DNA of 48,811 nucleotides, from NCBI GenBank assembly GCA_023701125.1, contig JAMPXO010000025.1, positions 1 to 48,811 on the forward strand. Reading direction: 5' to 3'. Positions within the stretch are counted from its first letter, which is position 1. Each line of letters starts with the position of its first letter. The translations under genes and the position numbers were made by a program. The notes under the pieces were generated by a model, which had not been told where the DNA came from, searched no databases, and was given only the letters and a program-made list of their open reading frames with translations. This document shows positions 13,954 through 35,085 of the stretch, in pieces. The stretch is from Vicinamibacteria bacterium. GTDB taxonomy: Bacteria; Acidobacteriota; Vicinamibacteria; Fen-336.

Positions 13954-16900
13954 TCAGCTCGTGATCGTGCGCAGGCGCTCGCAGAGCACGCGGATCACGC
14001 CGCGGACCACCTCGATGCGATCGGCCATCAGCTCGTAGAGCGCCTCCTGCTCGAGCCGGAACAGGTGGGTCGGCCCGAGGGCGGCCACCGAGGCCGAGCG
14101 CGGCTCGGGGTCCAGCGCCGCCATCTCGCCGAAGATCTCGCGTGGCCCGAGGTCGCGCAGCACGCGGCCCTCGTTGCTGACCCGCACCGCGCCCTCGACG
14201 ACGATGTACAGGGCCGAGCCCATGTCGCCCTTCTCGAACACGGTGCCGCCGGCCGCGACGTCGACTTCCTCCAGGCGCGAGGCGACCTCGGCGAGGATCT
14301 CGTCGGGGGTCTCGCGGAAGATCGAGACGCTCTTCAGGATGATCACCTTCTCGACGGTCGACAGCATCGACTTCCCTCCCGCCAGCTCCGTCTCGTAGCG
14401 CTCGATCAGGCGCTCCGCCTCCGTCATCGCCGCGCCCGTGCCCGCTCGCGGCAGCCGGGCGATCGCCTCCTGGACCAGCGGATCGTCGGCCGGCACCCGC
14501 TCGGCCAGCCCGGCCAGCTCCGGCAGCCGGGCCACCGTCGCCGCGTGCAGGGCGCAGGCCCGCACCCACGGCGCCGTCGCCGGCGCGGTGGCCAGCTCCA
14601 GCAGCCGCGGCGCGAAGCCGAGCCGCGCGTGGGGGAACTCGGCACCCAGCCGCCGCAGGCGCTCGGCGTGCGCCACGTCCTCCAGCAGCGGCACGATCAC
14701 CCGCGCGAGGTCGGGCGACACCAGGCTGTCGACGAGCTCGACCGCCTGGGCCCGCTTCTCGTGGCGCCGGCTGGACAGGTTGACCCGCGCGCGGAGCACG
14801 GGGTCGGGCGGATAGATGAAGCCGAGCAGGCAGAAGATCCGCTCCCGGGCCTGGACCACGGCGTGCTCCAGGGTGTGCGCCAGCAGCGAGTCGGGAGCCG
14901 CCTCACGCACGTCCTCGACGGCGGCCAGCGCGGCCACGGCGTCGGCCACCTCGCGGAAGATCCGGGCCCGCACCTGGGGCAGGGCGCCCGCCGGGGCCTC
15001 GAAGCCGGCCGTCGCCAGCGACGACAGCAGGGACATCCGCACCTCGGGGTCTTCGTGCTCCGCGCACAACCACAGGAACTCGCCGGCGCGGCTGCCTCCG
15101 ATCTGTCCGATCAGGCGCGCCAGCCGCCGCTGGCCCGCCCGTTGCCGGGCCTCGTCGGCGGCGTGGAACGCCTGCTCCAGCTCCGGCAGGACGACGGGGC
15201 CCGACGCCACCAGGGCGGCCATCGCCGCCGAGCGGTGGGCCGGCAGCTCGAGCCCGGCCAGCAGCAGCGGCAGCAGGCGCGGGTTGCGCAACTGGCCGGC
15301 GGCCCACAACGCTGCCCGGCGCACGGCCGGCACCGGGTCCTGGAGCAACGCCAGCAGCGGCCGGTAGAAGCTGGCCTGGCCGACCTCGCCGATCACCCGC
15401 GCGGCCTCCTCGCGGGCGAACGGGTCGTGGCTGCGAGCCAGGCCGACCAGCCGTTCGCCGGCCGCCAGCACGCCCTCGATGCCGCCGTGGCGCAACAGCG
15501 CGACCAGCGCCCCACGGCGCGCCTCGGCCTCGGGCGCATCGAGGGACAGCATCACGCGCTCGACGTCCTCGGGCTCGCCGATCGCCGCCAGCGCGCGCAG
15601 CGCCGCTCCCCGCGCGGCGGCGTGCTCTTCGGCGACCGACGCGAGGCGGATCGCGCCCAGCGCCGCGCGCTGCCCCAGCCGCTCGACGCGCAGCGCCGCG
15701 TCGCGCCGCACGGCCGGGTCGGAGTGGCCGAGCAGGGCGACCAGCGCGGTCTCGAGCGAGGGGTGGGCGAGGTCCTCCAGCACCCCGAGGCAGTACGCGA
15801 CCTCCTCCGGCCGCGGCGAGAGCAGGCCCTTCTGGAGCACCGCGAAGCTGGAGGCGTCGAGCTCCAGGGAGATCCCGGTCAGGTGGCGGCTCTCCAGCGC
15901 GCGGCGCAGCTTCTCGGTGTACGCGCCGCGCAGCGCCGCCGCCACCGCCGACCAGCCGAGCACCAGCAGCAGCAGCAACGCGCAGAGTTCGACGGCACCG
16001 AAGCCGAGGCCGCCCACCAGCGCCAGCAGGGAGAGGCCCGCGGCCCCGCCTGCGAGCGGACCCGCGATGCCCTCGACCGCGGTCTGGGCCCGGACCCGCG
16101 CCGCGCCCGGCAGCGGCTGGTACAGCAGCAGCACGGCACTGCGATCGACCGAGTCGCGCAGCGCCTGGTCGAGCAGCTTGGTCAGCGCCAGCAGCGCGAA
16201 CAGGGCCAGTGCCGGGGCCGCCATCGCGCCGGCGCCGACGACGCCGAGGCAGCCGAAGCCGATCGCGATCGGCATGAACTGCAGGGCGCCGAGGCCGAAG
16301 CGGGCGAGCGCCCGGCCGGACAGCGCCCGGGCCAGCAGGGTGATCGCCGCGACCCCGCCATTGAAGACGCCGATGAACGCGGTCAGGTCGCGCTCCGCCG
16401 GGTAGCGCGCAGCCGCCAGCGCGTAGAACGCGTTGTCGAGGAAGTAGTAGCCGACGTAGGAGAGCGCGACCAGCGCGAACAGCAGCTTGAGGTACGCGCT
16501 GCGCAACAGCCCGCCCGGGCGCTCGGACTGCGAGCGATCCTCGGCGGAGCCCGACTCCACCAGCGGGAAGCGCCGCACGACGGCGCGCAACAGCAGCAGG
16601 CAGCCGACGACGGCAGCGGCCGAGACGTAGAGCAGGTCGGCGGTGCCGAAGCGGGCGACGAAGGCGGGCACCAGCAGCCCGGTGACGGCGCCCGCGGCCA
16701 GCTCGCCTGCGCCGATCGGCCCGAACAGGCGCTTGCCCTGACGCACGTTGAGCAGCGAGCCCGACAGGCCCCAGAACTCGAGCGTCAGCAGCACGCCCTC
16801 GACCTCGGCCCACACGGGCAGCACCAGCGCGACCGGGACCACGAAGCCGAGTCCCAGCGCGCCGCGCAGCGCGACCAGCGTCACCAGCACCACCGCGAGG

Positions 16901-17166
16901 TCGACCGCCAGCAGCGTGCGCAGCCCGATCCGCGCCGACAGCCGCAGGCGCAGGAAGCCGGTGACCGGAATCGCGATCGCCGCGGCGATGTAGACCCACG
17001 GCAGGTGGCGGGCGTCGCTGTGGGAGAGGAACAGCGCCATGCCCGCCGTACTGGTCAGGTTGCGCGGTACTCCGACGCAGAAGGAGTGCAGCACGAGCAG
17101 CCAGACGAGGCGCTCCTCCTCCGGGCGGACGTCGAGCATGGCGGCGAGCGCCTTGCGGAGCGCCAT
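13954..17166 (-). CDS. Polytopic membrane protein (ATP/ADP-translocase or MFS-like) fused to HEAT repeats and a cNMP-binding domain
   Basis: This 1070-residue protein starts at ATG 17166; the frame is open further upstream but there overlaps the SET-domain gene. Residues 1 to about 415 hold about 12 hydrophobic segments in a transporter-like pattern that recalls Npt1/MFS proteins. About residues 430-860 consist of alpha-helical HEAT-type repeats (for example LVALLGHSDPAVRRDAALRVERLG and PLLALLQDPVPAVRRAALWAAGQL). About 935-1060 form a cyclic-nucleotide-binding domain (SIFRETPDEILAEVASRLEEVDVAAGGTVFEKGDMGSALYIVVEG, with the phosphate-cassette-like FGEMAALDPEPRSASVAA). The pieces suggest a nucleotide-gated or nucleotide-scaffolded membrane protein. 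Transport activity is not shown by any motif I can name. Confidence 0.85.
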   Translation of the reverse strand: MALRKALAAMLDVRPEEERLVWLLVLHSFCVGVPRNLTSTAGMALFLSHSDARHLPWVYIAAAIAIPVTGFLRLRLSARIGLRTLLAVDLAVVLVTLVALRGALGLGFVVPVALVLPVWAEVEGVLLTLEFWGLSGSLLNVRQGKRLFGPIGAGELAAGAVTGLLVPAFVARFGTADLLYVSAAAVVGCLLLLRAVVRRFPLVESGSAEDRSQSERPGGLLRSAYLKLLFALVALSYVGYYFLDNAFYALAAARYPAERDLTAFIGVFNGGVAAITLLARALSGRALARFGLGALQFMPIAIGFGCLGVVGAGAMAAPALALFALLALTKLLDQALRDSVDRSAVLLLYQPLPGAARVRAQTAVEGIAGPLAGGAAGLSLLALVGGLGFGAVELCALLLLLVLGWSAVAAALRGAYTEKLRRALESRHLTGISLELDASSFAVLQKGLLSPRPEEVAYCLGVLEDLAHPSLETALVALLGHSDPAVRRDAALRVERLGQRAALGAIRLASVAEEHAAARGAALRALAAIGEPEDVERVMLSLDAPEAEARRGALVALLRHGGIEGVLAAGERLVGLARSHDPFAREEAARVIGEVGQASFYRPLLALLQDPVPAVRRAALWAAGQLRNPRLLPLLLAGLELPAHRSAAMAALVASGPVVLPELEQAFHAADEARQRAGQRRLARLIGQIGGSRAGEFLWLCAEHEDPEVRMSLLSSLATAGFEAPAGALPQVRARIFREVADAVAALAAVEDVREAAPDSLLAHTLEHAVVQARERIFCLLGFIYPPDPVLRARVNLSSRRHEKRAQAVELVDSLVSPDLARVIVPLLEDVAHAERLRRLGAEFPHARLGFAPRLLELATAPATAPWVRACALHAATVARLPELAGLAERVPADDPLVQEAIARLPRAGTGAAMTEAERLIERYETELAGGKSMLSTVEKVIILKSVSIFRETPDEILAEVASRLEEVDVAAGGTVFEKGDMGSALYIVVEGAVRVSNEGRVLRDLGPREIFGEMAALDPEPRSASVAALGPTHLFRLEQEALYELMADRIEVVRGVIRVLCERLRTITS

Positions 17167-17219: not shown

Positions 17220-17681
17220 CTAACGAGCCCGATACCTGTCGATCAAGCCTCGGCAACCCGCGCTGCCGCAGCGGCAGGTGAAGGTCCAGCGCGGGTCCCA
17301 GAAGTAGTGCTGCGGGAAGCGGGCGCAGAGGGCGGCGTCGGCCCACTCGTAGTCGATCGTCAGCTCGCTGCCCGCGGCGACGGCGCGCAGGGTGGCCAGT
17401 GCGCGGTCGGGCCGGATCTCCGCGTTGGGCTCGCACGCGTGGTTGACGAAGCGCGCCAGGGTCAGCGGCACGGTCCACTCGAACGGCGCGAACGAGTTGA
17501 CGTACACGACCTCGGCTTCGGGCACGTCGGCCCAGGCCAGGTCGGGACCGAGGAAGCGGGTGAAGACCGTGCCCGCAGCCAGGTCGACGCGGGCGAAGAC
17601 GCCGGTCTGCCCGTTGGCCACCGACCGCGCCTCGATCAGGCCCGCCTCCAGCAGGCGGGTGGCCGCCAGCCGATCGTTCAC
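17220..17681 (-). CDS. SET-domain protein, putative lysine N-methyltransferase
   Basis: This 153-residue protein starts at GTG 17681, which overlaps the stop of the upstream PLP-enzyme gene (GTGA). It is essentially one SET domain: NGQTGVFARVDLAAGTVF (N-terminal strand), RFVNHACEPNAEI (the N-H-x2-P-N S-adenosylmethionine pocket motif), AGSELTIDYEW (catalytic Tyr region) and a post-SET-like CRCGSAGCRGLI with three cysteines that could bind zinc. The overlap implies co-translation with the PLP enzyme, so the two may act on the same substrate or protein. The methylated target is unknown. Confidence 0.88.
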   Translation of the reverse strand: MNDRLAATRLLEAGLIEARSVANGQTGVFARVDLAAGTVFTRFLGPDLAWADVPEAEVVYVNSFAPFEWTVPLTLARFVNHACEPNAEIRPDRALATLRAVAAGSELTIDYEWADAALCARFPQHYFWDPRWTFTCRCGSAGCRGLIDRYRAR

Positions 17682-18871
17682 AGCGCCACCTCGCGCACCG
17701 GCCCGCGCAGGCAGTGGTCCGAGGCCATCGACGAGCCGTACGCGCCGGCGGGCAGGAACGCCAGCAGGTCGCCCTCCGCGACCACGGGCAGCGGCAGGTC
17801 GCGGGCGAAGATGTCGTTCGACTCGTTGATGTTGCCCGCCACCGAGGCCGGCCCGGCGATCGCCGCCAGCGGCCGGTCGACGTGGGCGATCTCGATCGGC
17901 AGGCCGTAGTGGGCCGCGTAGAGGTTGACGTTGTGGCCGGCGTCCACGCCGATCCACACGGTGCCGGACTTCTCCTCCACCGTGTTGACCTCCACCAGCA
18001 GCACGCCGGCCGCGTCGACCAGCAGCGTGCCCGGCTCGCAGGCGATGGTCAGCCCCAGCGGGCCCAGGTGACGCGCGGCCGCGTCGGCCCATTCTTCGGG
18101 CATGACGGGATCGTCGCCCGCGCGGCGCCGGGCGCCGAGGCCACCGCCGAGGTTGACGGTGCTCACGCTCGGCAGTCGCCGCGCGAACGCGGCCATCTTC
18201 TCCATCACCCACTCGAGCTTGTGCAGGGCGCCGCGCTGGATGCCCCAGCCGCAGTGCACGTGCAGCGTCTCGACGACCAGGCCCGCGGCCGCGGCCGCCT
18301 CGACGGCGGCCTCGAAGGCGTCGTGGGCGAAGCCGAACTTGGTGTTGCCGTAGGCCAGCTTGGGGTGGCTGCCGTAGCCGATGTCGACGGCGCAGTCGAG
18401 GCGCAGGCCGATCGCCGTGCCGCGCGGCACCCGCTCGCCGAAGCGCCGGATCGCCGACAACGAGTCGAGGTTGAGCGACGCGCCGGCGCTCGCGAAGAAG
18501 TCGAGGTCGCGGTTGCTCAGCATCGAGGCGGTGACCGAGATCTCGCCCGGCCCGAAGCCGAGCTCGCGGGCCAGCTCCAGCTCGCGCGGCGAGCAGGCGT
18601 CGATGCCGACGTCACCGCAGTCGCGGATGGTCTGCAACACCGGGCGGAAGCGGTTGGCCTTCATCGCGTAGTAGAGGCGGAACGGCACGCCGCGCGACGC
18701 GAAGGCGGCCCGCAGCTCGTCGACCCGGCGGCGCACCTTGGCCAGGCTGTAGACGTAGAGCGGGGTGCCGTGCTCGGTCGCCAGCGCCCGCAGCGAACGG
18801 CCGTCGAAGTGGAGACCCGAGGGCTCGGCGCGAAGGCCGTTGCCGGCCCACCAGGCGGGAATCGTGCTCAC
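17678..18871 (-). CDS. Fold-type III PLP enzyme of the DAP/ornithine decarboxylase family, lacking the catalytic Cys
   Basis: This 397-residue protein has the alanine-racemase-type barrel with the PLP Lys in YYAMKANRF, LHVHCGWG, NLGGGLG for PLP phosphate binding, CEPGT, and a C-terminal beta domain (GVDAGHNVNLYAAHYG, AYGSSMASDHC). In diaminopimelate and ornithine decarboxylases the C-terminal domain supplies a catalytic Cys in a CES(G)D motif. Here the aligned stretch reads GNINESNDIF, with Asn in place of that Cys. The protein therefore probably does not catalyse standard L-amino-acid decarboxylation, or uses another acid. It overlaps the SET gene by four bases. It is too divergent to name as LysA. 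Confidence 0.85.
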   Translation of the reverse strand: MSTIPAWWAGNGLRAEPSGLHFDGRSLRALATEHGTPLYVYSLAKVRRRVDELRAAFASRGVPFRLYYAMKANRFRPVLQTIRDCGDVGIDACSPRELELARELGFGPGEISVTASMLSNRDLDFFASAGASLNLDSLSAIRRFGERVPRGTAIGLRLDCAVDIGYGSHPKLAYGNTKFGFAHDAFEAAVEAAAAAGLVVETLHVHCGWGIQRGALHKLEWVMEKMAAFARRLPSVSTVNLGGGLGARRRAGDDPVMPEEWADAAARHLGPLGLTIACEPGTLLVDAAGVLLVEVNTVEEKSGTVWIGVDAGHNVNLYAAHYGLPIEIAHVDRPLAAIAGPASVAGNINESNDIFARDLPLPVVAEGDLLAFLPAGAYGSSMASDHCLRGPVREVAL

Positions 18872-19004: not shown

Positions 19005-19017
19005 TGAGCCGGCTCAC
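19004..19017. other. 14-bp perfect palindrome spanning a stop codon
   Basis: GTGAGCC and GGCTCAC are perfectly complementary with no spacer and abut repeat R2. The palindrome contains the TGA stop codon of the 1205-residue fusion gene on the minus strand. It may belong to the repeat boundary or take part in 3'-end formation. Confidence 0.4.
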
Positions 19018-22000
19018 ACCGCGTTACGGGTGGCGGCGAACAGCGCCGCGGGGTCGGCGGGCACCGGCAATCCGGGTGCGGCCATCGCGTCCTTCACCCA
19101 CGCGGGCTGGCGCATCCCCACCAGCACGCAGGACACGCCGGGCGCCGCGAGCAGCGCGGCCAGGGCGAGCTGCGACGTGGGCGCCGACGACGCGGCGGCC
19201 GGCGCGTGGCGCAGCAACGCCGCGCGCACCGGCGCCAGCGTCTCCCGGCTGCGGGCCATGGCCCGCGCGCGCACGGCGTCGAGCAGCCGCCGCAGGGTGG
19301 GCAGGTAGCGCTGCCGCCAGTCCTGCCACTCGCGTCCCGCCGGGCCGGCCAGCGCACCGTCGAGGGCGCGCAGCAGCGCCTGCAGCCGCGGCATCACGCG
19401 GTGCCCCTCGATCTGCTCCCAGTGCGGCAGGCCCGAGACGACCTGCGCGGCCTGCGGCAGCTCGCTGCCGAAGCGGAAGAACTCCGCGGGCGGCAGCGGC
19501 CCGTCGGCCTGGAGCTGGACGGCCAGTCCCTGACGCCACTCCTCCTCGAGCGCCTCGACCGCGGCGGCGGCGGCGTCCACGTCGCCCGCGTCGCCCACGA
19601 CTTCGTGGTCGGCGAGGCGCAGCAGGCCCCCGGCGTACATCGCGTTCAGCGGCCGGTTGACGAGCACGGCGAGCCCCGCCTCGCGCGCGACGTCCAGCGT
19701 GGAACGGCCGGCGTGCTTCTTCTCGAGCAGCGGGTCGGCCTCCAGCAGGTTCATCGGCAACTGCAGCACCTGGAAGTGGTGGCGCTCGCCACCGGCCTCG
19801 CGTGCGCAGGCCAGGAAGCGCTCGAGCGAAGTCGACTCGGCGTCGACGTCGGGCGCGCCGATCGTGTTCGACGAGACGCCGTAGGCGCGGATGCGCCCCG
19901 CGGCGACGAAGCCCTCCAGCGCGCGGAAGGCGGCCGTGACCCGCTCGTCGAACTCGGCGCGGCGCGACTCGATCGTGCCGCGACTGCGCTCGTGGGCATC
20001 CTTCAGGAAGTACTCGGGGTTGTGCAGCAGCAGGACGTCGAGCGTGCGCAACTGCAGCCGGTCCAGGCTGCGCGCGAGCTGGTCGGCCAGGAACTCGGGG
20101 TGCAGGCAGTGCCAGAGGTCCTCGTCGTACTGGACGACCTCGGGGAACGGCTTCCCCTCCTCTTCACGGGCCTTCGCGAGTTCGAAGTTCTCGCCCTGCA
20201 GGTAGCCGATCTTGGAGACGACGACGACCTCGTCGCGGGCGAGCTGGTGCTCGGCGCAGAGCTCTGCGAGCACCTCGCCGTACAGCCGCTCGCTGCCGCC
20301 GTCCATGTAGTTCGTCGAGGTGTCGAGCAGGTTGACGCCGGAGGCGAGCGCCTCCACCAGCGCCTGGTGATGGGCCGCGGTCTCGTCCTCGACGCGGTAG
20401 CCGCCGAAGCCGAGCCGGCCGACCGTCAGCCCGCAGGCACCCAGCGGGCCGAACGCCGCGGCCAGCCGACCCGCCGCGCGCTGCCGGGCCGCGTAGCGGG
20501 CGGTGCCCTCCGCGGTAGCGAAGCCCTCGAGGCGCCCGGCCTCGATGCCGCCCGCGGCGCGCGACGGTGGCGGCGGGTCCGCCAGCGCGGCGGCCACCTC
20601 TGCCGGCTCCGTGACAGGACGACGGCAGGTGTAGTCGCGGCATACGTAGAGCGCGGGCCGGCCTTCGACCAAGCCGCGGCCGACGAGCAGCGGCAGCGTC
20701 GAGGCGCCTTCGCCCGCCGCATGGGCCACGACTCGTGCGGCCACGAAGTGGCGCGCCAGCTCGGCTTCCAGTGCCTCGCGGGCCTCGTCGCCCGGCGCAC
20801 CGACGAGGGCCAGCTCGAGCGGCCCGTCCTGCAGGAAGTCGGCGACGATCAGCGAGCGAGAGAACGCCCGCGGCTGGCGCGCGACGGCGCGGCCCCAGGC
20901 CCGCAGCGCCCGTGCCGCCTCGTCCCGCCACGCCGGCCGGTCGAGGTGGAACGACAGCCGTGCCAGCAGCGATGCCGCGCACGCATTCGCGGCAGGGGTG
21001 GCGCCGTCGTGGCCCTCGCGGTGGCGCACGATCAGCTCTTCCGCGTCACGCGCGGTCTGCCAGAAGCCGCCGTCTTCGCCGCCGAAGTCCACGAGCATGC
21101 GCTGCGCCAGCCGCTCGGCCTCGCGCAGGTGCGCCTCCGCGCCGCCGGCCTCGTAGAGGTCGACGAGGCCCTCGCCGAGGTATGCGTAGTCCTCGAGGTA
21201 GCCGGGGATGTGGCCGACGCCGGCGCGCCACGAGCGCAGCAGGCGGCCGTCCGCCGTGGTCAGCGCGTCGCGCACGAACGTGGCAGCCGCCTCCGCCGCG
21301 GCGAGATAGCGCGGCTCGCGCAGCACGCGATGGCCCTCGGCGAAGGCGGAGATCGCGAGGCCGTTCCACGCCGTCAGCACCTTGTCGTCGAGCCCGGGCT
21401 GCACCCGGCGATTGCGCGCCGCGAGCACCTGCGGCCGCGCCTGCTCGACCGAGGCTTCGAGCTCGGCGAGCGGGACGCCCAGCCGCTTCGCCGACACCTC
21501 CGGCTCCTGCAGCAGGTTGGGGATCGAGTGGCCTTCCCAGTTGCCCGAGCGGGTGACGTCGTAGTACTCGCAGAAGCGCCGCGCCAGCTCCGCGTCGCCG
21601 AGAGCTGCCTCGACCTGCTCCGGGGTCCAGACGAAGAAGCGGCCCTCCTCGCCCTCGGAGTCGGCGTCGGTCGCGGAGAAGAAGCCGCCGCCCGGCCCCG
21701 TCATCTCGCGCAGCAGGTAGTCGAGCGTCTCGCGGGCGACCCGAGCGTGGCGGGCCTCGCCCGTGACCTGGAAGGCCTCGAGGTAGGCCCGGGCCAGGAG
21801 CGCGTTGTCGTAGAGCATCTTCTCGAAGTGCGGCACCAGCCACTTCTGGTCCGTCGCGTAGCGGCAGAAGCCGCCCGCGACGTGGTCGTAGAGGCCACCG
21901 CGCGCCATCGCGTCGAGGGTGCCCGTCGCCATCTCCAGCGCTTTCGCGTCGCCCGTGCGGCGATGGGCGCGCAGCAGCAGCCGGATCGTCTCCGCGGGCG

Positions 22001-22631
22001 GGAACTTGGGAGCGCCGCCGAAGCCGCCCCAGCGCGCGTCGTACGCGCGGCCGAGCTGGGTCGCCGCCGCCTTCAGCGTGTCCTCGCCCACGCCGGCGCC
22101 CGGCGCCGGCCGCGCGTTCTCGCGCAGGTGCTCCACCAGTCGCCCGCCCTGCTCCACGAGCGCGTCGCGGTCCTGCTCCCACGCCTGCGCGATCTGTCGC
22201 AGCAGGGTCGGGAACCCGGGCCGGCCGTGGCGGTCCTCCGGCGGGAAGTAGGTACCGGCGAAGAAGGGCTGCTGGTCGGGGGTCAGGAACACGGTCATCG
22301 GCCAGCCGCCCTGGCCGTGGTTCATCGCCAGCGTCGCCGCCATGTAGATGTCGTCGAGGTCGGGCCGCTCCTCGCGGTCGACCTTGATGTTGACGAAGTG
22401 GCGGTTCATCAGCGTCGCCGTGGCCTCGTCCTCGAAGCTCTCGTGGGCCATCACGTGGCACCAGTGGCAGGCCGAGTAGCCGATCGAGAGCAGGATCGGC
22501 TTGTGCTCGGCGCGCGCCCGCGCCAGCGCTTCTTCCCCCCACGGGTACCAGTCGACGGGGTTCGAGGCGTGCTGCAACAGGTAGGGGCTGGTGGCGTCGG
22601 CGAGGCGGTTGCGGCGGGACGAGGAACTCAT
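19014..22631 (-). CDS. YyaL/SSP411-type thioredoxin-like protein fused to an aldo-keto reductase
   Basis: This is one uninterrupted 1205-residue frame. Residues 1 to about 165 form a DUF255 thioredoxin-like domain ([22 protein letters not shown]) with Cys55-His-Trp-Cys58. About 170-670 is the alpha/alpha-barrel part of the YyaL/SSP411 family, which normally ends the protein at the motif seen here near residue 663 ([12 protein letters not shown]). About 730-1190 is an aldo-keto reductase with the catalytic tetrad visible: Asp in LLDTSTN, Tyr in NYMDG, Lys in VVSKIGY and His in LLLHNPEY. YyaL function is unknown; the reductase half should use NAD(P)H. The fusion suggests a redox partnership or one shared substrate. 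A sequencing frameshift joining two genes is unlikely because both halves are complete. Confidence 0.88.
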
Positions 22632-24904: not shown

Positions 24905-26764
24905 ATGGACGAAACGGCCCACGGTTCCCGACACCAGACGGAGTTGCTGCTCCACGGCCTGCGCGCGCTGTTCGGCGAGGTCGACGAGGAGTTCCTCACC
25001 GAGTTGCTGCCGCGCCTGGAGTGGGTGGAGCTCGCGGGCGGCGACCAGCTGTTCGGCGAAGGCGAGCGCGGCGACGACATCTACTTCGTGATCAGCGGGC
25101 GCCTGCGCGCCCACGTCGCCGACGAGGACGGCCAGCGCGTGCTGGGCGAGATCATGCGCGGCGAGACGATCGGCGAGATGGCGATCTTCACGGGCGAGCC
25201 GCGCTCCGCGTCGATCACCGCCGTGCGCGACAGCGTGCTGGTCAAGCTCTCGCGGGCGGGCTTCGAGACGCTGCTCGGCAGCCACCCGCTGCTGTCGATC
25301 AACGTCACCCGGCTGATCATCGACCGCCTCAAGCGCTCCAGCCACCCGCGCCACGCGTCGCGGCGGCCGGTCAACCTGTGCCTGCTGCCGATCACCGACG
25401 GCGTCGAGGCAACGCAACTCGGCCAGCGCCTGGTCGACCGCCTGGGGCGCCACGGGCGCGCCGTGCTGCTGACCAGCGCCGGCGTCAACGAAACCCACGG
25501 CGCCGACGTCGCCGGGGCGGACAAGTCGCGGCCCGAGGACTACCGGCGGCTGACCCGCTGGCTCGACGAGGTCGAGGCACAGCACGATTTCCTGGTCTTC
25601 GTGGCCGACGCCGAGGCGAGCGAGTGGTCGCGGCGCTCGATCCGCCACTCGGACGAGGTGCTGCTGCTGTGCGACGCGAACCGCGAGCCGGCCGTGCACG
25701 ACATGGAGCGGCGCTTCCTCGAGGGGCCGAGCCGGGTCGGCGGCGCGACCCAGACCCTGGTCCTGCTCCACCCCGAGGGCACCACCTTCCCGCGCGGCAC
25801 CCGGGCCTGGCTCGAGCGGCGGCCGGTGGCCCGCCACTTCCACGTCCGGCCCCACCTCGACCGCGACGTCGCGCGGCTGGTCCGCATCCTCTCCGGCCAC
25901 GCGATCGGCCTCGTGTTCAGCGGCGGCGGGGCGCGCGGCTTCGCCCACCTCGGCGTGATGCGCGCGCTGGAGGAGCACGGCGTCCAGGTCGACTACGTGG
26001 GCGGCACCAGCATCGGCGGCGTGATGGCCGCGTTGTGCGGCTTCGACCAGCCGGCGACCCAGGCGATCCACAACGCCCGCCGCGCGTTCAAGGCCGACCC
26101 CACCAGCGACTACAACCTGGTGCCGATGATCTCGTTCATCCGCGGCCGCAAGCTGAAGCGGATCATCGAGGGCGCGATCGACGAGGCGGTCGGCTGGCAG
26201 CCGGACATGGAGGACTGCTGGAAGACGGTGTTCTGCATCGCCACCAACTTCTCGCGCTCGACGGAGATGGTGCTGACCCGCGGTGACCTGGCCCGCCAGA
26301 TCCGCGCCTCGGTCTCGATCCCGGCCGCGCTGCCGCCCGTGATCCAGGACGGCGACCTGCTGGTCGACGGCGGCTGCTTCAACAACTTCCCGACCGACGT
26401 CATGGGCCGGCTCGGCGTCGGCAAGGTGATCGGCGTCGACCTGATCAAGGACGTGCGGCGGCGGCAGGAGATCGACGAGGTCCCGGGCAACTGGGAGCTG
26501 CTGCGCGACAAGTTGCGCGGGGGCAAGAAGCGCTACCGGCTGCCGTCGCTGACCGCGGTGCTGCTGATGTCGACGATCCTGTACTCCAACTCGCGACGCA
26601 AGCAGACCAAGCAGTACACCGATCTCTACTTCAACCCCGAGATGGGCCGGGTCGGGCTGCTGGAGTGGAGTCGCTTCGAGTCGATCGTCGAGCTCGGCTA
26701 CCTGCACGCGAAGGAACTGCTGGGCCGGATGAGCGAGGCCGAGCTGGCCCCCTACCGGGACTGA
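24905..26764 (+). CDS. cNMP-binding domain plus patatin-like phospholipase (NTE family)
   Basis: This 619-residue protein has a cyclic-nucleotide-binding domain at about 20-150 (GERGDDIYFVISGRLRAHV, GETIGEMAIFTGEPRSASITAVRDS), a Rossmann-like middle region at about 155-325 as in bacterial NTE proteins, and a patatin domain at about 330-500. The lipase parts are the oxyanion loop SGGGARGFAHLG, the nucleophile elbow GGTSIGG and the catalytic Asp in LLVDGGCFNNFP. It should hydrolyse phospholipids or lysophospholipids at the inner face of the membrane under nucleotide or ligand control. It follows the FKBP gene by 94 bases. The organisation is that of neuropathy-target-esterase homologues, and the catalytic dyad is intact. 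Confidence 0.94.
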   Translation: MDETAHGSRHQTELLLHGLRALFGEVDEEFLTELLPRLEWVELAGGDQLFGEGERGDDIYFVISGRLRAHVADEDGQRVLGEIMRGETIGEMAIFTGEPRSASITAVRDSVLVKLSRAGFETLLGSHPLLSINVTRLIIDRLKRSSHPRHASRRPVNLCLLPITDGVEATQLGQRLVDRLGRHGRAVLLTSAGVNETHGADVAGADKSRPEDYRRLTRWLDEVEAQHDFLVFVADAEASEWSRRSIRHSDEVLLLCDANREPAVHDMERRFLEGPSRVGGATQTLVLLHPEGTTFPRGTRAWLERRPVARHFHVRPHLDRDVARLVRILSGHAIGLVFSGGGARGFAHLGVMRALEEHGVQVDYVGGTSIGGVMAALCGFDQPATQAIHNARRAFKADPTSDYNLVPMISFIRGRKLKRIIEGAIDEAVGWQPDMEDCWKTVFCIATNFSRSTEMVLTRGDLARQIRASVSIPAALPPVIQDGDLLVDGGCFNNFPTDVMGRLGVGKVIGVDLIKDVRRRQEIDEVPGNWELLRDKLRGGKKRYRLPSLTAVLLMSTILYSNSRRKQTKQYTDLYFNPEMGRVGLLEWSRFESIVELGYLHAKELLGRMSEAELAPYRD

Positions 26765-30526: not shown

Positions 30527-31630
30527 ATGGTCCTCGGCCTGTTCGGTGGATCGGACGTCGGGGACCTGATCGCGAAGAAGAAGTACGCGCGGGCCATCGA
30601 GGTCCTCGGCGAGCAGTTGCGCCGCGGCTCCTCCGACCCGCGCGTGCGCAACCAGCTCGCGGACGTGCTGATCATGGCCGGCCGCGAGAAGGAAGCCGTG
30701 CCGGTCCTGATCGCGCTGGCCGACGATTACGCGCGGGACAACCAGGCCCCGCGCGCGATCGCGCTGCTGAAGAAGATCGAGCGCATCGACCCCGGCCGCC
30801 GCGACGTCGACCAGAAGCTGGCGTCGCTGATCCGGGACAAGAAGCCGAAGCCGAAGCCCGGCGCCGCGGGTGGCGGCTGGCAACCGTACGAGGAGGGCGG
30901 CCTGTCCACGGGCGGCGCTGTCTTCGACCCCTCCCACTTCGAGCCCTCTCCGTACACGGGCCAGGAGTCGGTGGCCGCCGCCAGGCAGGCGTCGTGGCAG
31001 GCGGACGTCGGCACCAAGTCGGAGGCGCCGGCCGCGGCGCCCGACTTCCCCGCCATCCAGCTCCCGCCGGAGCCCGACGAACCACCCGTGTTCTCGAGCG
31101 AGATGTTCCGCGGCCAGGTCCTCGACGTGATCCAGGAAGTGCTCAAGGCGCCGCAGCCCGGCCCCCCGGCCGCGCCTGCGCCACCGCCGCCGGCCGCGGG
31201 TGAAGAGCCGCTGATCGAGGTCGAGCCCGAGCCCGAGCTGGTCTCGAGCCCGCTGTTCGGCGACATGTCCGAGGACGAGCTGATCGCCTTCATGCGCGGC
31301 CTGCGGCTGCTCAGCTTCGAGCCGGGCGACGTGATCCTGACCGAGGGACACCCCGGCGACTCGCTGTTCGTGGTCTCGAGCGGCCTGGTCAAGGCCTTCG
31401 TCAACGACGCCAACCCCACCGGCCAGCGCCTCGCCCGCACGATGAAGGATGGCGACTTCTTCGGCGAGATCTCGATCCTGTCGGGCAAGCCGCGGACGGC
31501 CACCGTGACCGCCGCGACCCGCGTCGAGCTGCTCGAGATGGACCGCCCCACGCTCGACGAGATGCTGAAGTCCCAGCCGCGCATCATGCAGGTGCTGCAG
31601 GACTTCTACATCGCCCGCGCGACGGCCTGA
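30527..31630 (+). CDS. TPR-like repeat protein with C-terminal cNMP-binding domain
   Basis: This 367-residue protein has helical TPR-like repeats at about 1-110 (AKKKYARAIEVLGEQLRRGSSDPRVRNQLADVLIMAG, PRAIALLKKIERIDPGRRDV), a Pro/Ala-rich linker, and a cyclic-nucleotide-binding domain at about 235-360 (SPLFGDMSEDELIAFMRGLRLLSFEPGDVILTEGHPGDSLFVVSSG, FFGEISILSGKPRTATVTAAT). The R-T-A segment corresponds to the phosphate-binding cassette. No DNA-binding or catalytic domain is seen, so it is probably a ligand-responsive scaffold. The 963-residue protein at 32194-35085 repeats this architecture, indicating duplication. Confidence 0.88.
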   Translation: MVLGLFGGSDVGDLIAKKKYARAIEVLGEQLRRGSSDPRVRNQLADVLIMAGREKEAVPVLIALADDYARDNQAPRAIALLKKIERIDPGRRDVDQKLASLIRDKKPKPKPGAAGGGWQPYEEGGLSTGGAVFDPSHFEPSPYTGQESVAAARQASWQADVGTKSEAPAAAPDFPAIQLPPEPDEPPVFSSEMFRGQVLDVIQEVLKAPQPGPPAAPAPPPPAAGEEPLIEVEPEPELVSSPLFGDMSEDELIAFMRGLRLLSFEPGDVILTEGHPGDSLFVVSSGLVKAFVNDANPTGQRLARTMKDGDFFGEISILSGKPRTATVTAATRVELLEMDRPTLDEMLKSQPRIMQVLQDFYIARATA

Positions 31631-31645: not shown

Positions 31646-32197
31646 TCAGCGCGCGGGTGGTGACGGCGGCGGCGGACACGCGGACACTCCGCGCTGCGCG
31701 CGCCGCGCCTCCAGCGCCTGCCCGATCCGCGCGAGCTGCTCCGCGCTCAGGTTCCGCTGCAACGTCTCGTAGAAGGCGCGCTCCTCGTAGCGGACGTGGT
31801 CGTCGAGCAGCGGGCCGAGTTCGCCACACACGAGCCGCACGTCCTCGTCGCGCTCGAGCGCCATCGCGAGCGACGCGGCCAGGGCCTCCATCTCGCGGTG
31901 CTCGTCCGCGATCCGCTGCACGCCTTCGGGGTCGAACCCGCGCGCCGCGGGCAGCAGCTCCTGCTCTTCGTCGGCGAAGTGAAAGCACATCTCCGCCTCC
32001 CAGGTCGCGAGGAACGCGCGGGCCGCGGCGACGACGGCCGGGTCGCCCGCGACCCGCTGCGCGGCGCGCTTGAGGTCGAGGGCGCGGACCAGCACTCCGT
32101 GGTGCTCGCGGGAGAGGGCGACGAGGGCGGGGTCGCGGCGCAGGCCGCGGGTGCCGGGGGCCAGCGCGGGCACGACTCGCGCCGGGCGCTCGCTCAC
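31646..32197 (-). CDS. Hemerythrin-like HHE-domain protein
   Basis: This 183-residue protein starts at GTG 32197, overlapping the stop of the upstream cNMP protein (GTGA). Two HHE motifs are visible: LSREHHGVLVRAL with CFHFADEEQELLP, and ADEHREMEALAAS with LLDDHVRYEERAFYETL. These provide the His and Glu ligands of a di-iron centre. Such proteins sense or bind oxygen, nitric oxide or iron. Overlap with the double-cNMP gene suggests that both work in one signalling or stress unit. The C-terminus is a short Pro-rich tail. Confidence 0.88.
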   Translation of the reverse strand: MSERPARVVPALAPGTRGLRRDPALVALSREHHGVLVRALDLKRAAQRVAGDPAVVAAARAFLATWEAEMCFHFADEEQELLPAARGFDPEGVQRIADEHREMEALAASLAMALERDEDVRLVCGELGPLLDDHVRYEERAFYETLQRNLSAEQLARIGQALEARRAQRGVSACPPPPSPPAR

Positions 32198-35085
32198 GCC
32201 GGGCGGTGGCCGCGCAGTTGCGCGGCCTCGGCGCTCTGCGCGCGCTCGCGCGAGATCGCCTCCAGCACCTCGCGCATCCGCGGGTGGCGCGCGGTGCAGG
32301 CCGCCAGCGCCTCGTGGGTCAGCTCCAGGAGCTCGCCGCGGGTCGCCGCGATCACGGTGGCGCGGCGGGGCTGGCCCGAGATCGCCGCCATCTCGCCGAA
32401 GAAGGCGCCGTCGCGCAGCACCGCCAGCCGGGCGGTGTCGCCGCGCGGCGTGCGCACGAACACCTTGACGACCCCCGTCGCCAGGATGAACACGCTGGCG
32501 CCGGGCTCGCCCTCGCTGATCAGGATCTCGCCCGCCTCGACCGGCACCAGCCGCAACTGCTGGACCAGCGCCAGCAACTCGTCCTCGGCGAGGCCCTCGA
32601 ACAGCGGGCTCGCGCGCAGGCCGCGGCCGTAGGAGCGGGTGGCCGCGGGTGCGACCTCCGGCGCCAGCGGCGGCGCCTTCTTGACCTGTTCGCGGACCAC
32701 GTCGACCAGCCAGTCGCCGAAGCTGGCCGCGGTGCGCGGGCCACGCCGCGGGGCGGCGGGCGCGGGCGCCGCCGCCACGGCGGGCGCAGCGGCCGCGGGC
32801 ACGGGTGGCACCGACGGGGGTTTGGGGGCGGAGGAGGCCGGAGTCGTCCGACGGAGCCCCCATGGGACCGGCGACGGGGTCTCCCCGGCGCCGGAACCCG
32901 ACGGTGGCTCCCGGCGCGGCCGCTTGAGCGGGGCCAGGTTCACCTCTTCGATGTAGCGCTTCTGCAGCCCCTCGATCTTCTTGAGGATCGCGACGGCTTT
33001 CTCGGGGAAGCCCTGGCGCACCAGCTCGTCGGCGAGGCCGACCAGCACGGCGACCGCGTCTTCCTCCTTGCCCGCGCGCAGCAGCGCGTCGGCCAGCCGC
33101 AACTGCATCTTCGGGTCCCAGTGGCTCTCGCCGAAGTGGGCCAGCAGCACCTCGTTGGCGCGCTTGCGGGTGTTCTCCGCGTCGAGCACCACCGCCCGCA
33201 CGGCCGCGTTCTCCGGTGCGCTGGCGCGGGCGATGTACGCCGCCTCCAGGCGGTCGCGCACGCGCGGGTGAGTGGCGGCCATCGCGTCGAGGGTCGGCTG
33301 CGACAGCTCCAGGCACTCCACCCAGTCGGCGGCGACGACGGTGGCCGAGCGCGGCTGGCCGGTGAGCGCGGAGACCTCGCCGAACCACTCGCCTTCGCCG
33401 AGCCGCGCCACCTCGACGTTGCGGCCGATCGGGTTGCGCACGTAGACCCGCGCGTCGCCGGTGGTCAGCACGAACAGGCTGTTGCCCGGAGCGCCTTCGC
33501 TGACCAGCACGTCTCCGGGGTCGAAGGTCCGCAGCGTCAACCCCTCGACGACCGCCATCAGCTCGTCCTGCGCCAGCTCGCCGAACAGCGGCGTGGCCAG
33601 CAGCCGCCGGCTCATGTCGAGGTAGTGGCGGGCGTCGACCCGCACCGGCCGTTCCTCTTCATCCAGCGCGTCGATCAGCGGCTCGGCGTCGGCCGCCGAC
33701 GCTTCCGCGGGGCGCTGCAGCACGTCCTGCACGAGGTCGAGCAACTGCTCCTGGAAGGCCGACTCGTCGAGGCCCTCACCTGCCGCGGCGGGCAGGGCTT
33801 CGAGCAGCGACTCGGGCGCGGCGGGCGCGGGTTCGGCGGGCGGCGGCGGGGCCGGCTCGGACGCGGCAAGCAGCGGCTCGTCGTCCTCGGCCTGGACCTC
33901 GACCTCGCCGGCCTCCGGCTCGATTTCGGGCTCGACATCGGGCTCGGGTTCGACACGCGGCTCTTCGGCGTCCGGGCCCGCCATCGGCGCCGGTTCGGCA
34001 GGCGTCTCGGGCGCCGCAGTCGCGGGAGGCGCTTCGCGCTGTTCCGCTTCGTCGTCGTCGCGGGCGAGGAACCAGCGCAACGCGCCCTTGAAGCGGTCGA
34101 TGCCGGATTCTTCGGCCGCGCTCGGCGGCGGGATCTCGGCGGTCGCGGGCGCTGCTTCCGGGGCGGCGGGCGCGGACTCCACCGGTTCACCCACGGGCGC
34201 GGGCTCCACGCTCTCGACGGGCGGGGCTTCGGGCGCTGCGGGCTCCGCGGACGCGCTCGGCGCAACGGGGGCGGCCTCGACCGGGAACTCGGTCGCGTCG
34301 GACGGGACGGGGGCTTCAGCCGGCTTCGGCTCGTCGTCCACCAGTGAAGAAAGGAAGCGGCGGAACACGTTGCGCAGGCGACCGCCGGCCGGCTTCGCGG
34401 GCTCGAGTGGCGACGGGGGCTCGGAGTCCGACGTCGCGGGAGGGGCGAGGTCCAGCTCGGGTTCGGGCGGGGGAGGTTCGAATGTCGGGGTCGGTTCGGC
34501 GGGCGGGGTCGGCTCGGCGGACGGGGCCTCGTCCACGGTCGGGGTGGGTTCGGCGGGCGGGGTCTGCTCGGCGGGCGGGGGGACCGCCGGCATCGGCGCG
34601 TCGAAAGAGAGGCCCGGAGGCGGGACCGACAGGTCGATCGCCGCCATCTGCGCCAGCGTGTCGTCGCCCGGCGCCTCGCCGATCTCCTCGATGCCGAACA
34701 GCGGCACCGGCATCGGGCGCGGGGTCGCCGCTCCCCCGGAGCCACCTATCTGCCGCTGCTGTTCCTGGACCAGCGCCGCGATTCGCTGTGCCACGTCGGC
34801 TCGTCCGGGCTCGACCTTGTCCACCCGCTTCAGGATCGCGATCGCCTTGGCCACGAAGCCGTCGCGCTGCAGCTCGTCGGCGAGCGCCACCAGGATCGGG
34901 CACGCCTCGGCGGGTCGGCCGGCCTGGATCAGCAGGTCGGCGAGCTGGAGCCGGACCTTCTCGGAAGGCGCGCGGCCCTCGAGCTGCTGGCGCAGTTCCT
35001 CGATCGCCTTCGCCCGCCGCTTGCGGGCGAGGATCTCCGACACATTCGACTCGATCGGCGAGTTGAGCCAGTCGATCGGCGGCAT
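32194..35085 (-). CDS. Large TPR protein with two cNMP-binding domains and long acidic Pro-rich linker
   Basis: This 963-residue protein begins [18 protein letters not shown]. Residues about 15-110 are TPR-like ([35 protein letters not shown]). About 115-480 is a low-complexity Pro/Glu/Ala linker, the first cNMP domain is about 500-615 ([41 protein letters not shown]), a second TPR-like unit is about 640-710 and a second cNMP domain is about 825-945 ([41 protein letters not shown]). It thus contains two tandem copies of the 30527 gene architecture. The linker near residues 724-757 is encoded by repeat element R3. It is divergent from sufB and overlaps the hemerythrin gene. Confidence 0.87.
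32813..32915 (+). repeat. Double-hairpin dispersed repeat, copy R3 (inside a gene)
   Basis: This copy carries GGGGGTTTGGGGGCGGAGGAG, a 7-bp hairpin TGGGGGC (32823-32829) / GCCCCCA (32856-32862), a 12-bp stem with one mismatch (CCGGCGACGGGG 32868-32879 / CCCCGGCGCCGG 32883-32894, TCT loop) and the tail GGAACCCGACGGTGGCTC shared with R2. It lies antisense within the 963-residue protein gene and encodes an in-frame Pro/Ser-rich linker between the second TPR-like and second cNMP units. Confidence 0.72.

Follow-up and report, generated by a model that had tools for sequence, protein, structure and literature searches.

Here, we describe a pair of overlapping genes from a Vicinamibacteria bacterium, which appears from its sequence to be a divergent variant of the BurB/BurI pair of Burkholderia and which probably encodes a sulfonium amino-acid pathway of the same type. 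The genes are located in the window, the whole stretch of 48,811 nucleotides that was analysed (assembly GCA_023701125.1, contig JAMPXO010000025.1, positions 1-48,811, forward strand). One of them encodes a PLP-dependent enzyme, the other a SET-domain protein, and a gene for a transporter-like protein is linked to them:

17678..18871, minus strand: fold-type III PLP enzyme of the BurI/SMM-decarboxylase-like ("Asn-type") clade, 397 aa, GTG start
17220..17681, minus strand: SET-domain methyltransferase (PF00856), candidate methionine S-methyltransferase of a divergent lineage, 153 aa, GTG start
17678..17681, minus strand: 4-nt start/stop overlap (GTGA) of the PLP and SET genes, junction GCGCTGTGAACGAT on the coding strand
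13954..17166, minus strand: transporter-like protein, 1070 aa, with a TLC/MFS-like membrane part, HEAT repeats and a cyclic-nucleotide-binding domain (Pfam TLC, HEAT_2, cNMP_binding)

The GTG start codon of the SET gene overlaps the TGA stop codon of the PLP gene, in line with the start inside the stop codon that the preliminary description of this DNA had reported. The PLP enzyme is a fold-type III decarboxylase of the ornithine/diaminopimelate (DAP) type with an intact PLP site. It matches both Pfam families PF02784 (Orn_Arg_deC_N) and PF00278 (Orn_DAP_Arg_deC), and its AlphaFold model (pLDDT 94) finds its best PDB matches among DAP decarboxylases and D-ornithine/D-lysine decarboxylases. The PLP lysine (K71), the glycine loop (GGGLG) and EPGT are all found in the protein, as previously noted. 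However, EPGT does not stand as a motif of these decarboxylases, since it is itself altered: all 45 lysA-type enzymes read EPGR or EPGK. With LysA, the window enzyme shares the fold, the PLP Lys, His206, GGGLG, EPG and GAYG, but it lacks the Cys, EPGR/K and the Arg of RPALY, has His-Cys in place of Tyr-Asn, and scores below the NCBIfam lysA cut-off (222 versus 298 bits). The D-ornithine/D-lysine decarboxylase DokD has the same fold and depends on its Cys387 (PMC13294871), whereas the window enzyme has Asn at position 349 and scores only 68 bits against an NCBIfam DokD cut-off of 700 bits. The genome of the window also encodes a second, Cys-type lysA-like relative (L002), and the window enzyme can therefore be regarded as a paralogue of a lysA-like gene.

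The preliminary description had also read NESND in place of CESGD as the loss of the catalytic Cys, and this is borne out by alignment with solved DAP decarboxylases, in which the CES position corresponds to N349-E350-S351 of the window enzyme. Homologues agree at this true aligned position. It is Asn in 67 of 67 clade members, that is, in all scan loci covering the site together with plasmid and relative sequences, and Cys in 45 of 45 lysA-type relatives. Glu350 is retained throughout, and the PLP Lys, His206, Glu279 and Tyr378 show little or no variation among members from several phyla. Four sites at which the window enzyme differs from the lysA-type enzymes are encoded as follows:

17825..17827, minus strand: Asn349, site of the catalytic Cys (GNINESND for GxxCESxD, by alignment)
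17711..17716, minus strand: His386-Cys387 (SDHCLRG; Tyr-Asn in lysA-type enzymes), candidate replacement proton donor
18026..18028, minus strand: Thr282 of EPGT (Arg or Lys in 45/45 lysA-type enzymes, Asp in most of the Bur subclade)
17918..17920, minus strand: Tyr318 (Arg in 45/45 lysA-type enzymes, Glu in 48/49 of the Bur subclade)

His386 is present in 66 of 66 clade members and Cys387 in 65 of 66, while Tyr386-Asn387 occupies the same place in lysA-type enzymes. A hand alignment, with the conserved GAY tyrosine as the starting point of the count, places position 386 opposite Phe397 of ornithine decarboxylase (ODC), which contacts and binds the departing CO2 (carboxylate) (PMC5518511). The joint alteration of the Cys site and of the 386/387 site makes it plausible that the proton donor has shifted away from the site of residue 349. 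The C-alpha proton would most likely come from the clade-specific His386/Cys387, or from water.

The substrate end of the active site has changed as well. The Arg (or Lys) 282 and Arg318 of lysA-type enzymes bind the distal carboxylate of diaminopimelate in established DAP decarboxylase structures. The loss of both arginines fits a substrate that has a cationic end and no distal carboxylate, and would be accounted for by the fixed positive charge of the substrate proposed below. Residue 282 is Asp in 46 of 50 members of the Bur subclade and Thr in 14 of 14 members of the window subclade, in which residue 318 is mostly Tyr, Leu or Asn. Residue 209 is Trp in the window subclade and Cys in the Bur subclade. 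The acidic pair D282/E318 of the bur-cluster members, a pattern noticed in this analysis and not a published criterion, is absent from the window enzyme, which has T282/Y318 instead.

In a phylogenetic tree, the Asn-type sequences form a single clade (SH-aLRT 99), which holds the window enzyme together with the bur-cluster enzymes. A reference-genome scan, seeded with the KANR/HGTPLYVY patterns, yielded at least 63 loci of the window's kind (L046-L108) among the best 80 loci listed, and the counts given here describe that sample. Among the matches listed, a SET gene adjoins the PLP gene in 40 of the 63 loci; in 2 others, the cluster contains one at a distance of about 18 kb; an MmtN-like gene adjoins it in 3, and 18 have neither gene within the stretch read. 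A SET neighbour is absent from every lysA-type locus. The two genes had been expected to be conserved together, and in this sample they are, with start and stop codons only a few bases apart in most adjacent pairs. Within the window PLP subclade, the majority of members have no adjacent SET gene. Two relatives in the family of the window's genome carry the pair, with identities of 89/78% and 60/62% (PLP/SET). In one family, the system occurs in only 1 of 60 genomes. Given this rarity, the linkage to SET genes is not a by-product of ubiquity. Neither Asn349 nor the overlap with the SET gene is due to chance.

The preliminary description did not recognise the pair as a described system, a view that has to be given up, since the homologous pair BurB/BurI has been described (PMC7496086, PMC12542666). 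BurB is a methionine S-methyltransferase with a SET fold, which acts on free methionine (PMC12542666). It makes S-methylmethionine (SMM), which builds up in a burI mutant and is undetected without burB (PMC7496086). BurI is the decarboxylase of the next step, acting on SMM (PMC7496086, PMC12542666), and is genetically required for SMM use (PMC7496086); the SMM decarboxylase (SMMDC) of Streptomyces mobaraensis is a homologue of BurI (PMC12542666). The aminotransferase and aldehyde dehydrogenase of the cluster are dispensable in B. thailandensis, where burD and burE mutants retain the product and housekeeping enzymes are held responsible (PMC7496086). We found a clade member and a SET gene together in the bur-type clusters of B. 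multivorans, B. ubonensis and Eleftheria terrae; these orthologous clusters, and not the B. thailandensis BurI sequence itself, are the basis of the bur comparison. In B. multivorans and Eleftheria, the pair is accompanied by TauD, class III aminotransferase and PKS genes. The Eleftheria cluster also has an annotated aldehyde dehydrogenase and FkbH, and a KARI-like gene was identified in that of B. multivorans. The B. multivorans SET protein matches BurB (PDB 9L4T, E 5.8e-93). The window PLP enzyme is 42% identical to the Burkholderia bur-type cluster enzyme over its length.

A second type of partner is found in the same PLP clade. In five SET-less members (L085, L096, L100, L128 and L129), a class I methyltransferase adjoins the PLP gene. 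The PDB comparison covered two of these five methyltransferases, those of L129 and L085, and both match only 7VVV (3.9e-105 and 1.5e-43, respectively). This entry was deposited as MmtN, which is the other methionine S-methyltransferase of bacteria (PMC9135737). A class III aminotransferase and/or an aldehyde dehydrogenase, enzymes of the two steps that follow on the way to DMSP, lies beside the PLP gene in L064, L069, L085, L096, L100 and L128. The MmtN-type DMSP clusters have the PLP clade of the window enzyme beside a methionine S-methyltransferase, and several of these loci add the aminotransferase and/or aldehyde dehydrogenase. They differ in their methyltransferase, since MmtN belongs to class I and has no relationship to SET, and no MmtN homologue was found in the window's genome or in the window-subclade genomes searched. 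The pairing of one PLP clade with two unrelated SMM-making enzymes is the strongest evidence on its substrate and suggests that this substrate is SMM.

The window SET protein, which is linked to an Asn-type PLP decarboxylase, has H81 and Y111, matching His93 and Tyr124 of BurB, and also the conserved set of Cys residues. The HTLQ motif of BurB, in which His72 is a SAM contact (PMC12542666), and the TED...RQF segment are both absent. Unlike BurB, it has retained NHxC (here NHAC), a motif of protein lysine methyltransferases, and it has an insertion, HYFWDPRWTF, ahead of the post-SET cysteines. In the SET tree, it groups with L003, L004, L054 and L142, outside the BurB-type clade; when all partner SET proteins were constrained to one clade, the AU test gave p = 0.107, so that a single clade with BurB is neither supported nor rejected. 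A fold search ranked lysine methyltransferases first, and BurB was not preferred over them. The window-type protein may have been recruited from a second SET lineage. Other SET genes were seen apart from this arrangement. An unlinked window-type SET gene is present in the genome of L047 (L142, or L149:2749-3189), and an aminotransferase-like ORF, recognised by eye, lies about 1.1 kb from it on the same strand. A short contig of a Spirochaetaceae genome (L139, or L150; G081:C173) carries a SET gene with the BurB-type motifs LHTLQ and LHSCDPN, and the PLP gene of the same genome (L073) has no adjacent SET gene. Tandem SET genes occur in a Chloroflexi genome (L140, G080) and in the window's own genome (L044, G000:C253).

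Several differences separate the window pair from the BurB/BurI pair of the B. thailandensis bur cluster. What is common to both, judged from the orthologous clusters of B. multivorans, B. ubonensis and Eleftheria, is a PLP clade with N349, H386 and C387 and a SET partner in the cluster. The window genes overlap directly, with the PLP gene first. The SET protein belongs to a separate lineage without HTLQ, and the PLP enzyme has T282/Y318, not D282/E318. The window pair has no adjoining PKS, aminotransferase or aldehyde dehydrogenase gene, and is linked to a HEAT/cNMP transporter. Judged by these traits, the pair should be filed as BurB/BurI-like rather than as BurB/BurI.

In the pathway that we consider probable, the SET protein would first methylate free methionine at its sulfur atom, with SAM as the methyl donor, giving SMM. 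The PLP enzyme would then decarboxylate SMM to 3-dimethylsulfoniopropylamine (DMSP-amine) without the usual Cys. DMSP-amine may be converted to DMSP by a housekeeping or unlinked aminotransferase and aldehyde dehydrogenase. No gene for either enzyme adjoins the pair in the window, and the top homologues encoded at other places in the genome share just 34-37% identity. This evidence agrees well with the earlier proposal that the pair may form a small pathway modifying an unusual amino acid, for which SMM is the best candidate. A more specific version is tentative, and we hold it to be possible but doubtful: a second SET lineage, recruited apart from BurB, would supply a methylated free amino acid to the same family of Cys-less PLP decarboxylases and, in Acidobacteriota and Gemmatimonadota, would form with cyclic-nucleotide-linked transporters an unrecognised sulfonium-metabolite system, in which the proton donor of the decarboxylase has left the Cys360 site and is now a His-Cys pair at the Phe397 site.

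The pair could also act on a different charged amino-acid derivative, in which case the window SET protein would methylate a free amine or a different free thioether and its product would be decarboxylated by the PLP enzyme. The substrate may indeed differ, because the window subclade has consistent changes at the substrate end, with W209, T282 and a neutral residue 318 (Tyr, Leu or Asn) against C209, D282 and E318, and its SET partner forms a separate lineage with the HYFWDPRWTF insertion. On the other hand, N349, H386, C387 and the loss of both arginines are common to the window and Bur subclades, and a related HEAT transporter goes with both, so that we judge this reading rather unlikely. 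It is more improbable still that the PLP enzyme, having lost the Cys that protonates C-alpha, carries out a decarboxylation-dependent transamination or an oxidative deamination and releases an aldehyde directly, in which case the substrate could still be SMM. This mode is nevertheless a genuine rival, because the C387A variant of DokD retains about 1% activity (PMC13294871) and the structure of a C387S D-ornithine/D-lysine decarboxylase (9cpz) holds PMP and 4-guanidinobutanal. The product retained by the burD and burE mutants would agree with it too, but that result has been ascribed to housekeeping enzymes (PMC7496086). Furthermore, at loci within this clade the PLP gene adjoins a separate aminotransferase gene, which would be needless on a direct aldehyde route, and H386-C387 offers a substitute proton donor.

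Alternatively, the SET protein might methylate a protein lysine, for example in the PLP enzyme or the transporter, and so regulate it, while the PLP enzyme would be an ordinary amino-acid decarboxylase. This option, raised in the preliminary description, keeps some ground for the window's own divergent SET protein, given its NHxC motif and the lysine methyltransferases at the top of its fold search. It is weakened by the replacement of SET by MmtN-like small-molecule methyltransferases within the same PLP clade, and also by BurB, whose substrate in the sister subclade is free Met (PMC12542666); we consider it very improbable. Almost no weight is given to the PLP enzyme being a degenerate, inactive DAP-decarboxylase paralogue. 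The loss of the catalytic Cys and the retention of the Cys-type L002 in the genome would suit such a paralogue, whereas the near invariance of the PLP Lys, His206, Glu279 and Tyr378 across several phyla, the fixation of the residue changes clade-wide and the genetic need for the bur-cluster BurI in SMM use (PMC7496086) all speak against it. A route in which the SET protein makes trimethyllysine and the PLP enzyme decarboxylates it (trimethyllysine/valerobetaine) was considered because of aminotransferase and aldehyde dehydrogenase neighbours, and was set aside because the BurB/BurI and MmtN evidence fits better. A literature search on this route found nothing, and one for links between SET-domain proteins and diaminopimelate decarboxylase found nothing useful.

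In the proposed SMM pathway, the linked transporter may carry the substrate or the product. In L046 the pair is likewise followed by a homologue, and so is the pair in L004, where the homologue was read through its N-terminal part only. Most sphingomonad and Caulobacteraceae loci have a similar protein close to the pair, and the Opitutaceae locus L072 has one close to its PLP gene. In Gemmatimonadota, an ABC transporter that carries a cNMP-binding domain at its C-terminus (L054:9176-11392) starts at the end of the PLP gene of a SET-PLP pair. These neighbours suggest that transport of the substrate or product may be under cyclic-nucleotide control. The 48.8-kb window has four proteins with cNMP-binding domains, at 13954-17166, 24905-26764, 30527-31630 and 32194-35085, which are the HEAT transporter, a patatin and two TPR proteins, and local cNMP signalling is possible. 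An unusual fusion, a 1205-aa ORF with an N-terminal thioredoxin-like DUF255/DsbH part and an aldo/keto reductase further on, lies at 19014-22631. On a plasmid of Sphingomonas paeninsulae (L126:2170-10218), the SET-PLP pair closes a gene run that comprises a HEAT-MFS transporter, a HAMP protein, a cNMP protein, an unknown protein, STAS (on the opposite strand) and an RsbW-like kinase, and that suggests regulated expression or signalling. The sphingomonad neighbours glutaminase, outer-membrane protein, RsbW/STAS and HAMP were set aside as lineage-specific.

BurB has been stated to be confined to closely related Burkholderia (PMC10989797) and has been placed in some Burkholderia only (PMC9135737). 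Here, pairs of BurB-type SET and BurI-type genes were found in sphingomonads, Caulobacteraceae, Desulfobulbaceae/Desulfolunaceae and Gammaproteobacteria, and the divergent form of the SET/PLP pair in Acidobacteriota and Gemmatimonadota. This suggests a known kind of system, here in a new variant, with a far wider spread in bacteria than reported. In the loci whose annotation was inspected, such genes are named "protein-lysine N-methyltransferase" and "diaminopimelate decarboxylase", which keeps the pathway hidden. The enzyme family also provides a natural test of the role of the catalytic Cys in ODC and DAP decarboxylases. The BurB/BurI pair performs the first steps towards DMSP, a climate-relevant sulfur compound; the sulfur cycle is shaped by DMSP and related compounds, and burB serves as an indicator gene for DMSP synthesis.
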